Source: an uncultured Cohaesibacter sp. (GTDB lineage Bacteria; Pseudomonadota; Alphaproteobacteria; Rhizobiales; Cohaesibacteraceae). From it: a stretch of 64,000 nt of DNA. The notes beneath the pieces were generated by a model, which had not been told where the DNA came from, did no database searches, and worked only from the letters and a program-made list of their open reading frames with translations. A program made the position numbers and the translations under genes. Below are positions 14,903-20,118 of this stretch, piece by piece; positions within the stretch are counted from its first letter, which is position 1; every line of letters begins with the position of its first letter. The stretch spans positions 1,532,109-1,596,108 of the forward strand of contig NZ_OY821667.1 in assembly GCF_963682185.1 (NCBI RefSeq), read 5' to 3'.

Positions 14903-15556
14903 TCAAAGCTCCACTTCCAGAATGTGATCGACCAGGATACCGGGTGTTTTCACGGCATCAGGCTGAATGCCACCGATCGGCACAATCGTCTCGGCTTCGG
15001 CGATGACCGTTTCTGCAGCCATAGCGATAATCGGATTGAAATTGTGCGCCGTCAGAGCGTAATCAAGATTGCCCATATAGTCGGCCTGTTTGGCCTTGAC
15101 TAGCGCGAAGTCGCCCCGGATCGGCTCCTCCAATAGATATTTCTCGCCCTTTACTTCAACAATCTGCTTGCCTTCTTCCACGGGCGTGCCCAGACCGGTC
15201 TGGGTCAGAACGCCGCCCAGGCCAACACCACCGGCGCGAATGCGCTCGATCAGCGTCCCCTGAGGCGTGAGTTCCACCTCTATTTCCCCAGCAATCATCT
15301 TCTGCTGGGTTTCTGCATTAAGGCCGATGTGACTGGCAATCACCTTCTTGACCAGACCAGCAGTAATCAATTTGCCGATGCCTTTTCCCACTAACGCCGT
15401 ATCATTCGCCACAATGGTAAAGCCGCCTACCCCCCGCTCAACCAATGCATCGATCATGCGCTCGGGCGTTCCAACCGCCATGAATCCACCGATGAGCAAA
15501 ACCGCTCCCTCGGGGATCAGCGCAGCAGCGTCTTCCAATTTTGTTGCTGTCTTCAT
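14903..15556 (-). CDS. atoD: 3-oxoacid CoA-transferase, subunit A
   Basis: 217 residues. It carries the GGFMAVGTPERMIDAL loop near the N-terminus, the SHIGLNAETQQ segment, and the glycine-rich RAGGVGLGGVLTQTGLGT stretch that contacts CoA in subunit A proteins. First gene of a two-gene operon with subunit B, one base apart. A palindrome TAAATCGA/TCGATTTA and a repeated ATTACGG element lie upstream. The enzyme would activate acetoacetate released by the BKACE enzyme to acetoacetyl-CoA for the thiolase at 5440. This pathway link is inference from gene content. Confidence 0.9.
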   Translation of the reverse strand: MKTATKLEDAAALIPEGAVLLIGGFMAVGTPERMIDALVERGVGGFTIVANDTALVGKGIGKLITAGLVKKVIASHIGLNAETQQKMIAGEIEVELTPQGTLIERIRAGGVGLGGVLTQTGLGTPVEEGKQIVEVKGEKYLLEEPIRGDFALVKAKQADYMGNLDYALTAHNFNPIIAMAAETVIAEAETIVPIGGIQPDAVKTPGILVDHILEVEL

Positions 15557-15688
15557 CGGCTACTCCTGTTTCCTCCGCTGTAGCACCTCAGGCCCCATAA
15601 AGTCCTATTCCAAAAGGATATCGGACGGGCCAACATTCTGACTGCACACAGTCGACCTATTATTCTCAATGTATCGGCAATCAAAATC

Positions 15689-15707
15689 CACATTACGGTA
15701 CAAACGA
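15689..15707. promoter_or_regulatory. Candidate operator, copy B
   Basis: CACATTACGGTACAAACGA, 17 of 19 bases identical to the element at 13924. It lies 133 bases before the CoA-transferase subunit A start. Probably bound by the island's IclR regulator (inference). Confidence 0.5.
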
Positions 15708-15760
15708 ACCGCCATTCGGTCAACCTGTAATAATGGCAACCCACACAACAAATTGAACTA

Positions 15761-15776
15761 TAAATCGATCGATTTA
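15761..15776. promoter_or_regulatory. Perfect 16-base palindrome
   Basis: TAAATCGA followed directly by its complement TCGATTTA, between the CoA-transferase operon start and the end of the CYTH gene. The symmetry and upstream position suggest a regulator site; the binder is unknown. Confidence 0.45.
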
Positions 15777-15996
15777 CCGATTTCTACTGAGACAAACACA
15801 GCAAGAATCGAAATAGCATGCGCCACACCTCAGCCCGGCGGGGCATTACTATTCAGATTGAAAGAATAGATAAAAACTTAAACTTACGCACTTATGCGTA
15901 AATTCAATCAAAAAACCGCCAGATGCGCCTCGCGCACCAAGCGGTTCTCACATTCTAATGTCTCACAGCCGGAAACAAGAAATACTCCGAAGAGCA

Positions 15997-16509
15997 TTAA
16001 GACAGCGGCATCCCCTTCACAGCCAGCGCCTTGTTCTTGTATCCCTTGTTGCTGGTCACATCTGCGCCAAACCAGTCCGGAGCCATAAACCCATTGGCAG
16101 CCTCAACGGACGAAAATTCCACTTCCACCAGCAGAAGCCCTTTCAGGCCACCATGGAAGACATCCAGCTCATAGTGAAGGCCATCCTCCAGCGCGCCAAC
16201 ATAGCGCGTTTTCTCGACCTGACGCCCCATCGTTGCCGGCCAGAAGCTTTCAAACTGCTCCGCACTTACGGTAACTTCGATCTCCTTGCGCTTTAGGGCT
16301 CCGTCAGATTTCAACGTCATGAAATAGTTCGCAGTTCCACCGGCAACCTTCTTGCGCAGCCTGATTTCAACGGAATCGTCTGAATGCGTCAGATACCCTT
16401 GCGCAACATCCACAGCCTCAAGACCAGCCAGATCGGGCAGCTCGGCCACCAGAAACTTACGCTCGATCTCCACAGCCGTGGGGGCCTCTTCAGCGACAGC
16501 CTTGTTCAT
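15997..16509 (-). CDS. CYTH-domain protein (triphosphate tunnel enzyme)
   Basis: 170 residues, one CYTH domain. The signature EIERKF (residues about 14-19) supplies the acidic ExExK triphosphate-binding residues. Further tunnel strands are visible: DSVEIRLRKK, YFMTLKSDGALKRKEIEV and LLVEVEF. Family members hydrolyse inorganic tripolyphosphate or nucleoside triphosphates, and some are adenylate cyclases or thiamine triphosphatases. Its ATG shares one base with the ParA-like gene's stop codon (TAATG). Being in one operon with a CHAD protein points to polyphosphate or triphosphate chemistry. Confidence 0.9.
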   Translation of the reverse strand: MNKAVAEEAPTAVEIERKFLVAELPDLAGLEAVDVAQGYLTHSDDSVEIRLRKKVAGGTANYFMTLKSDGALKRKEIEVTVSAEQFESFWPATMGRQVEKTRYVGALEDGLHYELDVFHGGLKGLLLVEVEFSSVEAANGFMAPDWFGADVTSNKGYKNKALAVKGMPLS

Positions 16510-17258
16510 TACAAATCCACCTTCTTTTTCACATCGCGATAGAGAGCCTTATAGGCCTTGGACGCAGAACTCTTGGGCGCGCTCGCCAGAACTGGAGCCC
16601 GATGAATACCCATGCGCTCGATATCCGAAGCAAAGGGCACCTGAGCCGAGAGAAACTGCTTCTTATACTGACCGGACAATTCGTCCATCAGATCTCCGTG
16701 CAGCGATTTGACTGACTGCACCATGGAAAAGAAGGCAGAGAGCTTCTTGAGCGGAATCTTGTTGACCTGGAAGAAGTCGACCAGCTGCTCAAAGGTCCTT
16801 TGAGACAAGGTCGTAGGAATGACCGGCACCAGAATGACATCGGAAGCCTTGAACACGCTTTCTGAAAGCGTCGAGATATTGGGCGGGCAATCGAGCAGAA
16901 TGACGTCATAGTCTTTTTTGACCGTCTTTAGCGCCTTCTTCAATCGCGACCGGCTGTTTCTCATGCGTGCCAAAAACACATCGAAATTCCGAAAGGTCAT
17001 ATTCGCTGGCAAAATATCGAGATTGTCGTAGTTGCTGCCCCGAATGGACTTGGTGAACCGTTCCACATCCTTGAAAAAGCGTTCGTCCGTCAGCTTCTTG
17101 GAAGGTTTGACGCGAAAATAAAAGCTCGAGGCCCCCTGAGGGTCCAGATCACAAAGCAGCACCTTCTTGCCTGCATCAGCCAAAGCATAAGCCAGATTGA
17201 CCGATGTTGCCGTTTTGCCAACCCCGCCCTTGTTTGAATAGCAGGCAATGATCTTCAT
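16509..17258 (-). CDS. ParA/MinD-type ATPase
   Basis: 249 residues. Deviant Walker A motif SNKGGVGKTATS (residues 8-19) with the ParA signature lysine, switch region DLDPQGASS, and Walker B-like VILLDCPP near residue 118. No N-terminal helix-turn-helix, so it is of the small type used for cargo positioning as well as plasmid partition. No parB or replication gene is nearby. It overlaps the CHAD gene by four bases (ATGA) and the CYTH gene by one, so the three are one translationally coupled unit. A GGGAGGGGG ribosome site precedes the ATG. A role in positioning a polyphosphate-linked cargo is a hypothesis from this context. Confidence 0.88.
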   Translation of the reverse strand: MKIIACYSNKGGVGKTATSVNLAYALADAGKKVLLCDLDPQGASSFYFRVKPSKKLTDERFFKDVERFTKSIRGSNYDNLDILPANMTFRNFDVFLARMRNSRSRLKKALKTVKKDYDVILLDCPPNISTLSESVFKASDVILVPVIPTTLSQRTFEQLVDFFQVNKIPLKKLSAFFSMVQSVKSLHGDLMDELSGQYKKQFLSAQVPFASDIERMGIHRAPVLASAPKSSASKAYKALYRDVKKKVDL

Positions 17259-18784
17259 TCTTCCCCCTCCCGCATTTTGAACAGCGCCCTGAAGGTCTGT
17301 TGGGTCACTTCGCTGTCAAATCGTGCAAAATTCTCAACCACATGCGCTCTTTCTTCGTCCTGCCGCTGATGCAGAATGGCAATCAGAGCCCCCACGCTCT
17401 TGGCCACTTTCATCTGCGTTGCCTTATTGCGGAACTTGTGGCTTTCAAGAAATCCGGATAAGGACACGATCTGCACGGAACAGTCGTTAAACGCCCCCAG
17501 ATTGTCCTGCAAGCGTTTCATCGGCTTGATCAACTGCTTGATATCCTTGCGTGGAAACAAGGGAGCGAAAAACTCCATCAGATACCGTAGCTTCTTGCAA
17601 TGAATGCGCAGCTCATGCACATCTTCATCGTCACTCTGGGCAGTTATGCCCTTGGCAATCTTGCAAATCTTGCGATAACGCTTCCAAATGAGCTGACAGG
17701 CATACTCATGAGCACCCAAATTGCTGTTGGGCCCTCTTTCCAATCGCTCAGGCGTAGCAAGCAAATCCGAAAGCACCTGCATTTCCGCCTGATAGGCCTC
17801 GCTGATCAGGTGGTCAGCCAGCTCGACAGCGGCCTCTTCCCGATCCCGCAGAAACAGCGCAAACATCTCCTTGAGGCCACCATGCAAGGCTTCAGGAATG
17901 AGCGCAAAGAAATCCTGTTTTTCCAGCAGATAGACATCCAGATCCCTGAGTGTGCCGGTCTTTGCCATAAGAGCAGAAAAACGCCTTTTCAGATCCTGTG
18001 TCTGCTCTTCAGAATAGACACCCTTGAACAGACTGAGCACGGAGCGAATCTTGCGCAGGGCGATGCGGTAATCATGCAGAAATTCCGTATCGATATCGTT
18101 GACGATACCCTTCTCGTTCACCCGGGCCGCAGGCAGATAAGCGGCCATGATGTCGGTCGCCACGTCAAAAGCGGGTTCATCCTCGCCAATCGTGATCTCC
18201 GGTTTGAGCACACCGGTGGGAAAGCCCATACAGAGGCCCGAGAGGAACGTTTCCAATCCCTCTTCACCGCCCCCAAGATCAATGAGCTTTTCGCGCAGCC
18301 GCACAAGGGCCTTTTCATAGCCCCGCACCGGACGCAAAAAGGCGATCAGTCCATTGGCTCCACCGACCATACGCGTCTCGATAAACTGCACCTTGATGTG
18401 GATTTTGCCCTCGTCATCCATCAGCGCCATTTGCGAGAAGCAACATTGCAGACGACAGATGGGCATGAGCGCACGCAGACGTGGCAACCCCTTCAGGGCC
18501 GTGCGCACCGGTCCCTTGCGCAAATCGCGCAGGAAGCCCCCGTCTGCCGAGCCCTTTTGCGTTATCAGAGCTCCGTCCCTGTCGAGCAATCGCAAGCGTC
18601 CTTCGCTCGCAAGCAGCAGGCGCCCCGAGCGCGTCAGCGGCAGGGGAAACATATCAAGTAAAGTGGCATCCACCGGATCCGTCTGCTCTGACAAGACCGG
18701 GCGCAATTTGCCAAAATCTTCGTCAATCAAACAATCCAGAGAACGGTTCGGAATAAGGAGTAAATGATCATCTGTCTCAGCCAT
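17255..18784 (-). CDS. CHAD-domain protein (polyphosphate-binding helical domain)
   Basis: About 509 residues from the preferred ATG. The C-terminal half is a CHAD domain with its two conserved histidine helices, FLHDYRIALRKIRS (about residue 237) and VHELRIHCKKLRYLMEFF (about 390). CHAD domains bind polyphosphate and locate to polyphosphate granules. The N-terminal 190 residues are not clearly assignable; an ASEGRLRLLDRDGALITQKG stretch resembles a worn CYTH domain. The frame stays open to 18922, but that extension would run through the galK terminator and an inverted repeat at 18865-18886, so the 18784 start is preferred despite a weak ribosome site. First gene of the CHAD-ParA-CYTH operon. 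Confidence 0.85.
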   Translation of the reverse strand: MAETDDHLLLIPNRSLDCLIDEDFGKLRPVLSEQTDPVDATLLDMFPLPLTRSGRLLLASEGRLRLLDRDGALITQKGSADGGFLRDLRKGPVRTALKGLPRLRALMPICRLQCCFSQMALMDDEGKIHIKVQFIETRMVGGANGLIAFLRPVRGYEKALVRLREKLIDLGGGEEGLETFLSGLCMGFPTGVLKPEITIGEDEPAFDVATDIMAAYLPAARVNEKGIVNDIDTEFLHDYRIALRKIRSVLSLFKGVYSEEQTQDLKRRFSALMAKTGTLRDLDVYLLEKQDFFALIPEALHGGLKEMFALFLRDREEAAVELADHLISEAYQAEMQVLSDLLATPERLERGPNSNLGAHEYACQLIWKRYRKICKIAKGITAQSDDEDVHELRIHCKKLRYLMEFFAPLFPRKDIKQLIKPMKRLQDNLGAFNDCSVQIVSLSGFLESHKFRNKATQMKVAKSVGALIAILHQRQDEERAHVVENFARFDSEVTQQTFRALFKMREGEE

Positions 18785-18864
18785 GGCATATATAGTTTCA
18801 CGGAACAACAATTGGCGCAAGGCGACAGACAAGCGCACAATGTGCAGTTCATTGAAAACCAACA

Positions 18865-18886
18865 GGTGTACACAAAATAGTACACC
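18865..18886. promoter_or_regulatory. Inverted repeat upstream of the CHAD operon
   Basis: GGTGTAC and GTACACC separated by eight bases, 81 bases before the proposed CHAD start and after the gal operon terminator. A candidate operator or promoter-proximal site; binder unknown. Confidence 0.4.
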
Positions 18887-18914
18887 CACCCCGTCGACCT
18901 CCATCGACAGATAC

Positions 18915-18941
18915 AAAAACACCCGACAAGATCGCCGGGTG
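18915..18941 (-). terminator. Terminator of the galETK operon
   Basis: CACCCG / CGGGTG stem; on the minus strand it is followed by TTTTTG. It lies 68 bases after the galK stop and before the CHAD gene, separating the two operons. Confidence 0.8.
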
Positions 18942-19008
18942 CCATCATTGTTCAGATGGTGAACCGTTGCCCACCAGAATCACTTGCGCGACGAGAGATC
19001 CAACCCGC

Positions 19009-20118
19009 TCAAGTCACTGCAAGAATGGAGGTCTTTTCGAAACGATCCAGAATGCGCTGATTGAAGGCATCAACCTGATCCTTCTCCACAAGAGCCACCA
19101 CAGAGCCGCCCCAACCACCGCCGGTCTGCCGCGCACCAAGCGAACCGAAAGAAAGAGCCGCTTCCACAATTGCATCGGTCTCATCAACCGTGATCTGGTA
19201 ATCATCTTTCTGGGAGAGGTGGCTTGCCACCATCAGCTTGCCAAAGAAAGCCATATCGTGATTGCGCAACGCCACAACGCCATCCAGCACATGCTTGTTA
19301 TCATTGATAATATGCCGCGCCCTGCGGTTGAGGGGCTCTGAAATCCCGTTGATGCGGTCCAGATCACCAACGCCGAGATCGCTGAGCATTTCCACATTGA
19401 GCGCCTTGCACGCCGCCTGACATTCCGCCACGCGGGTTGCATATCCGTCTTCCCCGCCATCAACCAGCTGATGGCTGACGCCGGATGCAATGATGACGAA
19501 GGCAAAGTCCGGCGATGTTTCCACCAGCTCATAATCAAGCGTGCGGGTATTGAGGAACATCGCCACACCCGGATCACCGACGGAAGAGGCGAACTGGTCC
19601 ATGATGCCACATGGCATGCCGACAAACTCATTCTCCACCGCCCGCGCCTTGACGGCCACATCGACAGAACTCATGGTGCGCCCAAAGAGCGCAAGGGCTG
19701 CCTTGATCGACACCACCTCAAGTGCGGCCGAGCTGGAAAGCCCTGCGCCCATGGGAAGGGTGGTTTCAAGCGCGACACGCAGCCCCGTTGCGGCCACATC
19801 CTCATAGGCCACAGCCTTCAGGCACCCCAACAGATAGTCAGACCAGCGCCCTTCGCGGCCATCCTCTATGGTCCGCACCTCGGTTTGATCGAACGTATCC
19901 GAATAGGCCTCGATCAAACCGGGTTTGTCACCCTTGCCAAGAGCGATGGACACACCCAGACCACGCAAGGCCATGGGCAATACAAAACCACCATTATAAT
20001 CGGTATGTTCCCCAAGCAGATTGACCCGACCGGGCGAATAGGCCACCACGCCGGGCGCTTGTCCGAAATGCTTTTCAAACGCCGCCTTGACCGATGCCGT
20101 CTCTTTTTCTTCCGTCAT
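19009..20118 (-). CDS. galK: Galactokinase
   Basis: 369 residues, GHMP kinase family: ATP plus D-galactose gives galactose-1-phosphate, first phosphorylation step of the Leloir pathway. The galactokinase signature GRVNLLGEHTDYNGG is at residues about 30-44, the GHMP ATP loop LPMGAGLSSSAALEV at about 121-135, and the C-terminal GARQTGGGWGG at about 332. Length and motifs are complete. Last gene of galE-galT-galK, nine bases after galT, followed by a terminator. Confidence 0.96.
   Translation of the reverse strand: MTEEKETASVKAAFEKHFGQAPGVVAYSPGRVNLLGEHTDYNGGFVLPMALRGLGVSIALGKGDKPGLIEAYSDTFDQTEVRTIEDGREGRWSDYLLGCLKAVAYEDVAATGLRVALETTLPMGAGLSSSAALEVVSIKAALALFGRTMSSVDVAVKARAVENEFVGMPCGIMDQFASSVGDPGVAMFLNTRTLDYELVETSPDFAFVIIASGVSHQLVDGGEDGYATRVAECQAACKALNVEMLSDLGVGDLDRINGISEPLNRRARHIINDNKHVLDGVVALRNHDMAFFGKLMVASHLSQKDDYQITVDETDAIVEAALSFGSLGARQTGGGWGGSVVALVEKDQVDAFNQRILDRFEKTSILAVT

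Follow-up and report, generated by a model that had tools for sequence, protein, structure and literature searches.

A gene for a CHAD-domain protein and an adjoining gene for a ParA-type ATPase form a conserved unit present in three phyla, to which a CYTH gene is added as a frequent, optional third member. The arrangement was analysed in a window of 64,000 nucleotides (positions 1532109-1596108 of contig NZ_OY821667.1, uncultured Cohaesibacter sp.), where the three genes lie on the minus strand and are transcribed in the order CHAD, ParA, CYTH. Judged from sequence, they rather probably constitute a positioning and inheritance system for polyphosphate granules similar to McdAB, which positions carboxysomes, with the CHAD protein as adapter, ParA as motor and CYTH as an optional trimming enzyme. 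The genes are the following:

17255-18784, minus strand: CHAD protein gene, 509 amino acids; a predicted TTM-like domain lacking ExExK (residues about 1-200), followed by the CHAD domain
16509-17258, minus strand: ParA/MinD-family (A/D) ATPase gene, 249 amino acids; deviant Walker A motif KGGVGKT
15997-16509, minus strand: CYTH/TTM protein gene, 170 amino acids; NeuTTM-like predicted tripolyphosphatase

The coordinates given in the original prediction are correct, as are the overlaps of 4 bases between CHAD and ParA (17255-17258) and of 1 base between ParA and CYTH (16509).

Linkage of the CHAD and ParA genes

The first locus set was obtained by a ParA-seeded scan of genome contigs, from which the best 80 of 91 were kept, and is biased to near relatives. 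These 80 ParA loci (55-99% identical) belong mostly to Alpha-, Beta- and Gammaproteobacteria and to Desulfobulbales-type genomes, with one from Kiritimatiellota (Pontiella). According to our own CHAD profile, 79 of the 80 loci have CHAD upstream of ParA and in the same orientation; the sole locus lacking it, L072, comes from a metagenome-assembled genome. Pfam confirmed the CHAD domain in all 8 CHAD genes checked (that of the window and 7 from other loci). With script-chosen starts, the two genes overlap by 4 bases in 43 loci and are spaced at -29 to +27 bases in 77; outside this range are L061, with CHAD 176 bases away, and L080, whose CHAD is in pieces. In 42 of the 80 loci, the pair is followed by CYTH in the same orientation.

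Two phylum samples were used as well: 398 Pseudomonadota genomes, including that of the window as centre genome, and 297 Thermodesulfobacteriota genomes around a Desulfopila locus, the centre genome of which was chosen for its CHAD-ParA pair. In Pseudomonadota, 69 ParA matches at E 1e-50 or better occur in 68 genomes, and just 7 of them have an adjacent CHAD (window, L087-L090, L096 and L098; L087 and L058 of the first locus set are one gene). Among Thermodesulfobacteriota, 14 ParA matches reach 1e-72 or better, and 12 of them have CHAD directly upstream (11 of 12 without the centre genome); L167 and L168 lack it. Starting from CHAD (profile at 1e-40, both samples), ParA adjoins 7 of 9 relatives in Pseudomonadota and 12 of 16 in Thermodesulfobacteriota with the centre genomes included, or 6 of 8 and 11 of 15 without them. 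The binomial probability of 19 ParA-adjacent genes among 25 is 1.7e-33 at an assumed neighbour rate of 1%, a value whose meaning is limited to "not chance", the rate being assumed, the centre genomes included and the loci related. Conservation of the trio in other genomes, on which the original prediction staked itself, therefore holds for CHAD-ParA (79/80; 19/25), whereas CYTH is optional (42/80).

Some CHAD relatives have other surroundings. At L263, CHAD and CYTH stand together with no ParA next door, and an orphan ParA (L097) occurs elsewhere in the same genome. L280 also has CHAD and CYTH with no ParA next door, together with Ppx-like and SixA-like reading frames recognized by eye; a polyphosphate gene set may exist there without a motor. 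The CHAD relative of L265 begins like a CYTH-CHAD fusion (by eye) and has no adjacent ParA. At L270, L274 and L281 no ParA is found within flanks of roughly 1.5 kb.

In a ParA tree of 147 rows, 82 rows form a clade (SH-aLRT 99), 81 of which are CHAD-linked, with L058/L087 as one gene entered twice. The CHAD-linkage label changes 4 times on the tree versus 47 times in shuffles. The 62 unlinked Pseudomonadota ParAs fall mostly outside the CHAD-linked clade; four unlinked rows cluster with the main clade together with L089 and L090 (support 84), and the deep order is unsure because of long branches. The distances among CHAD proteins correlate with those among ParAs (r 0.79, n=72, with no species-tree control), and 43 of 69 splits are common to the two trees. 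Seven Alcaligenaceae loci are nested in an otherwise alphaproteobacterial group of the ParA tree, and in each of the two trees, ParA and CHAD, a single branch separates these seven from the other loci. This placement, together with the distance correlation, suggests that the pair was transferred as a whole.

Another clade, of 37 related ParAs without CHAD (L099-L145; e.g., L107, 1739-2353, plus strand), has SH-aLRT 100. A protein with an Ala/Lys-rich repeat tail is encoded on the opposite strand nearby in 16 loci; by eye, the tail recalls the H1-like AlgP.

Proteins, polyphosphate genes and locus setting

Residues 212-439 of the window CHAD protein match Pfam CHAD (1.1e-56), and the domain matches the CHAD structures of Chlorobium tepidum (Foldseek, 2.6e-17 to 6qva). 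Mutation of His253, Arg256, Arg260, Arg296, Arg418 or Tyr419 of CtCHAD lowers polyphosphate binding (PMC6537752). By an alignment read by eye, these residues map to H237, R240, R244, R280, R400 and Y401, and all six are identical in 73 of 73 full-length CHAD proteins. The gene is the one convincing CHAD gene of the source genome; a second match (452341), which scored 26.0 bits (cut-off 25.6) and belongs to a GGDEF protein, was set aside as doubtful.

Pfam recognizes no domain in residues 1-200 of the CHAD protein. AlphaFold2 gave pLDDT 88.6 for the N-terminal region alone and 93.3 for the full protein, with a beta-rich N-terminal domain. The best 8 Foldseek matches of the N-terminal model are all TTM/CYTH proteins, from E 2.9e-5 (thiamine triphosphatase) to 3.1e-4, with TM-scores of just 0.28-0.50; Mediator Med18/20 chains are next in the list, at 3.1e-4. 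The full model matches ygiF (1.4e-7, low TM-score). On the basis of these models, the N-terminal domain is predicted to be TTM-like. The 29 aligned rows show no ExExK metal site at the N-terminus, and D44, R104 and G155 of this region are invariant in 73 of 73 proteins.

The window ATPase matches Pfam AAA_31 (9.7e-43). K10 (the signature lysine of the deviant Walker motif), K15, D39 and D123 are invariant in 80 of 80 ATPases. The net charge of the window ParA is +17; the means are +12 for 85 CHAD-linked rows, +9 for 62 unlinked relatives and -4 for 51 viral ParAs.

The CYTH protein matches Pfam CYTH with 23.3 bits, barely above the cut-off of 23.2, and the solved chains 3typ and 2fbl at E 7.4e-49 and 1e-48, respectively. 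The 2fbl entry is NE1496, which we take to be NeuTTM of Nitrosomonas europaea. E14, E16 and K18 (ExExK), Y39 and K67 are invariant in 42 of 42 CYTH proteins; by our own alignment, Y39 and K67 are the counterparts of Tyr-28 and Lys-52 of NeuTTM. The latter two residues are described as a pair in NeuTTM, which is a specific tripolyphosphatase (PMC3440374). The CYTH protein is a predicted, NeuTTM-like tripolyphosphatase.

Genes of polyphosphate metabolism occur near some of the pairs. In 7 of the 80 loci, PPK1 is encoded divergently from CHAD (own profile; Pfam-confirmed for L065), and it is close by in 4 of 12 Thermodesulfobacteriota CHAD-ParA loci, the centre genome among the 4 and several others being cut by contig ends. 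L177 and L184 carry PPK1-CHAD-ParA-CYTH-Nudix on one strand, and L182 carries PPK1-Ppx-Nudix-CHAD-ParA, also on one strand. Pfam confirmed PPK1 (L182, L184), Ppx-GppA and NUDIX (L182), CHAD (L177, L184) and CYTH (L184), and in L177 NUDIX plus a histidine phosphatase domain; our own profiles identified the ParAs, the L184 Nudix frame and both PPK1 and CYTH in L177. At L169 (7424-7933) and L176 (5827-6327), the place of CYTH directly behind ParA is taken by a histidine phosphatase gene that looks SixA-like by eye. Host genomes of the 80 loci contain PPK1 in 33 of the 40 searched, and the remaining 7 all have PPK2; this count is weak since PPK genes are common (PPK1 also matches in 7 of 14 control genomes). 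The source genome, a single contig of 5.39 Mb, has one PPK1 and two PPK2 genes, all outside the window. Polyphosphate as cargo is supported by the PPK1, Ppx and Nudix genes of some clusters and by the invariant polyphosphate-binding residues.

In the window, the trio is preceded by galactose genes (end of galK: 19009), and two terminator-like hairpins, each a consensus match only, were recognized:

18918-18943, minus strand: terminator-like hairpin behind galK, upstream of CHAD
15878-15907, minus strand: terminator-like hairpin behind CYTH

Since such hairpins are present on both sides, CHAD, ParA and CYTH may be their own transcription unit; the site count is weak, with 6 in the 64-kb stretch versus 4.0 in shuffles (standard deviation 2.2). 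A hairpin of 11 pairs at 18890-18861 (minus strand), lying after the terminator-like site of galK and before the start of CHAD, has no Rfam match, and a Rfam scan of 15500-19200 gave none. None of the 12 loose Pho box consensus matches of the window lies upstream of CHAD (18785-19010); 6.06 matches are expected in the window, and 4 of 100 shuffles reach 12. The closest named relative is Cohaesibacter marisflavi, with ParA 99% identical.

Proposed mechanism and alternatives

A CHAD protein with polyphosphate-site residues adjoins one ParA clade in three phyla, partly beside genes of polyphosphate synthesis and hydrolysis; a positioning role of the ATPase, with CHAD as the adapter between it and the granule, is what we infer. 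In such a system, the CHAD protein would coat the granule surface, and ATP-bound ParA dimers would bind the nucleoid non-specifically. CHAD would stimulate ATP hydrolysis by ParA and thereby clear ParA locally, and the granule would follow the remaining ParA by a diffusion ratchet, as in McdAB. As an outcome, granules would be distributed at intervals along the nucleoid and shared out between the daughter cells. At the granule, CYTH (Nudix, SixA-like or Ppx proteins in relatives) could serve to trim short chains and end products, and the predicted TTM-like domain without ExExK could be the ParA-binding or regulatory part of the CHAD protein. In a broader version, for which the chances appear evenly balanced, the genes could be a "granule partition" cassette that has spread by horizontal transfer: a single ParA clade would have evolved to move polyphosphate granules, the fusion of a TTM-like pseudoenzyme with CHAD would serve as cargo adapter and ATPase activator, and exchangeable phosphohydrolases would process the cargo.

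Several observations weigh against granule positioning by the pair. The linkage shows a shared process, not which process it is. In Pseudomonadota, 62 of 69 ParA relatives have no CHAD within the flanks examined, which span about 1.5-4 kb and in some cases are truncated by the end of the contig, and 6 of 25 CHAD relatives have no adjacent ParA, two of these with CYTH (L263, L280). L072 is placed inside the CHAD-linked clade yet lacks CHAD, and the CHAD-linked L096 and L098 are placed outside it, among unlinked rows. The flanks examined contain no PPK1 in 73 of 80 loci. Basic charge is not specific to the ATPases of the pair because their unlinked sisters are basic too. Known ParA/MinD partners are described as having a positively charged disordered N-terminus (PMC10241942), and a basic N-terminus is absent from the CHAD proteins: the mean net charge of the first 20 residues is -0.7 (n=73), with 11 of 73 at +2 or more and the window protein at -3. 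ParA would therefore have to be contacted via another surface, perhaps the TTM-like domain. The polyphosphate positioning proposed originally is partly supported: gene neighbours and invariant residues favour its cargo, while the basic terminus expected of a ParA partner is missing.

The main rival, which is considered unlikely, is metabolic control: ParA would be an ATP-driven switch recruiting or regulating PPK, Ppx and CYTH through CHAD, and granules would not be moved. The presence of PPK1, Ppx, Nudix, CYTH and histidine-phosphatase genes in some clusters agrees with it, as do CHAD-CYTH loci without ParA and the stimulation of ygiF tripolyphosphatase activity by a CHAD domain (PMC6537752); however, the ATPase is basic and has kept the deviant Walker lysine, and characterized relatives of its family position cargo (PMC10241942). 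Still less probable is a static tether, in which ParA-CHAD would anchor polyphosphate to the nucleoid, as AlgP may do, with no dynamic ratchet. The DNA-binding tail of AlgP affects granule spacing in Pseudomonas aeruginosa with no known need for ATP (PMC13052382), but in such a tether a fully conserved ATPase site would be needless.

A ParA of plasmid or chromosome partition standing beside CHAD by happenstance is disfavoured as the least probable explanation. The protein is labelled as a plasmid or chromosome partition protein in papers on Acidithiobacillus (PMC10892726, PMC6416229), it carries the annotation term "chromosome segregation" in a plasmid record, and six Paracoccus plasmids have a close relative of it. 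A Paracoccus aestuarii plasmid is annotated CHAD-ATPase-CYTH-NUDIX; a Pontibacter plasmid match (42%) has no CHAD downstream, and its upstream side is truncated where the record ends. Against partition, just 8 of 72,556 plasmid records match ParA at 1e-40, CHAD linkage holds across phyla, and among 67 ParA loci of viral contigs, taken as control, none has CHAD or CYTH (own profiles). No parB stands beside parA: the genome has two ParB_N matches, at 2553928 and 5194503, and neither falls within the window, in agreement with the initial statement that no partition gene is nearby. The second of these matches (5194503-5194817) sits within an open frame of 738 amino acids, far from the trio.

Relation to known systems and significance

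McdAB and the proposed granule-positioning system are alike in the ParA-type ATPase, the cargo-surface partner, the lack of ParB and the predicted nucleoid-based spacing. The McdAB-type arrangement of a cargo protein gene beside the ATPase gene was found in 79 of 80 loci and 12 of 14 matches, with CHAD as the presumed cargo marker. Unlike in McdAB, the adapter here would be a folded protein with a predicted TTM-like and a CHAD domain, without a basic N-terminal peptide, and the proposed cargo is polyphosphate granules. AlgP of Pseudomonas aeruginosa has the same proposed cargo and a nucleoid link, but it resembles histone H1, and the available parts of the sources (PMC9239181, PMC13052382) mention no ATPase partner for it. 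The phosins CtCHAD and ygiF share the CHAD fold and the polyphosphate-binding residues; they differ in that the protein described here has a predicted TTM-like N-terminal domain without ExExK (unlike ygiF) and an adjoining ParA gene. NeuTTM is similar to the CYTH protein (E 1e-48 to 2fbl, with ExExK and a counterpart of the Tyr28-Lys52 dyad conserved), whereas the CYTH gene here sits behind CHAD and ParA, and its tripolyphosphatase activity is a prediction.

The folD-ppk-parA-CHAD neighbourhood of Acidithiobacillus likewise brings together PPK1, ParA and CYTH-CHAD genes (PMC10892726, PMC6416229). In the available parts of these papers it is discussed for cAMP signalling and copper resistance, with ParA as a partition protein; this ParA is not in the ParA tree. 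For Cohaesibacter in connection with polyphosphate, the literature search brought up two papers, which by title concern shrimp and sponge bacteria. The original view that no system of this composition had been described was too broad as to gene neighbourhoods, and it stands as to a positioning function, which the available text does not assign. No published proposal that CHAD-ParA positions polyphosphate was found in the literature covered, with preprints and most subscription papers outside that coverage, and the main text of a multi-cargo ParA/MinD study (PMC10241942) has no word beginning with "polyphosph".

According to the available part of a 2025 review, granule positioning is an open problem: AlgP is named for polyphosphate spacing, the positioning proteins of Caulobacter are unidentified and energy use is unknown (PMC13052382). 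The CHAD-ParA pair is a concrete genetic handle on this problem, present in named strains, e.g., of Ruegeria, Phaeobacter, Paracoccus and Cohaesibacter. If the proposed function is true, the ParA family would gain a new cargo and a new type of adapter, and the pair, as far as the literature searched shows, would be the first ATP-driven polyphosphate positioning system.

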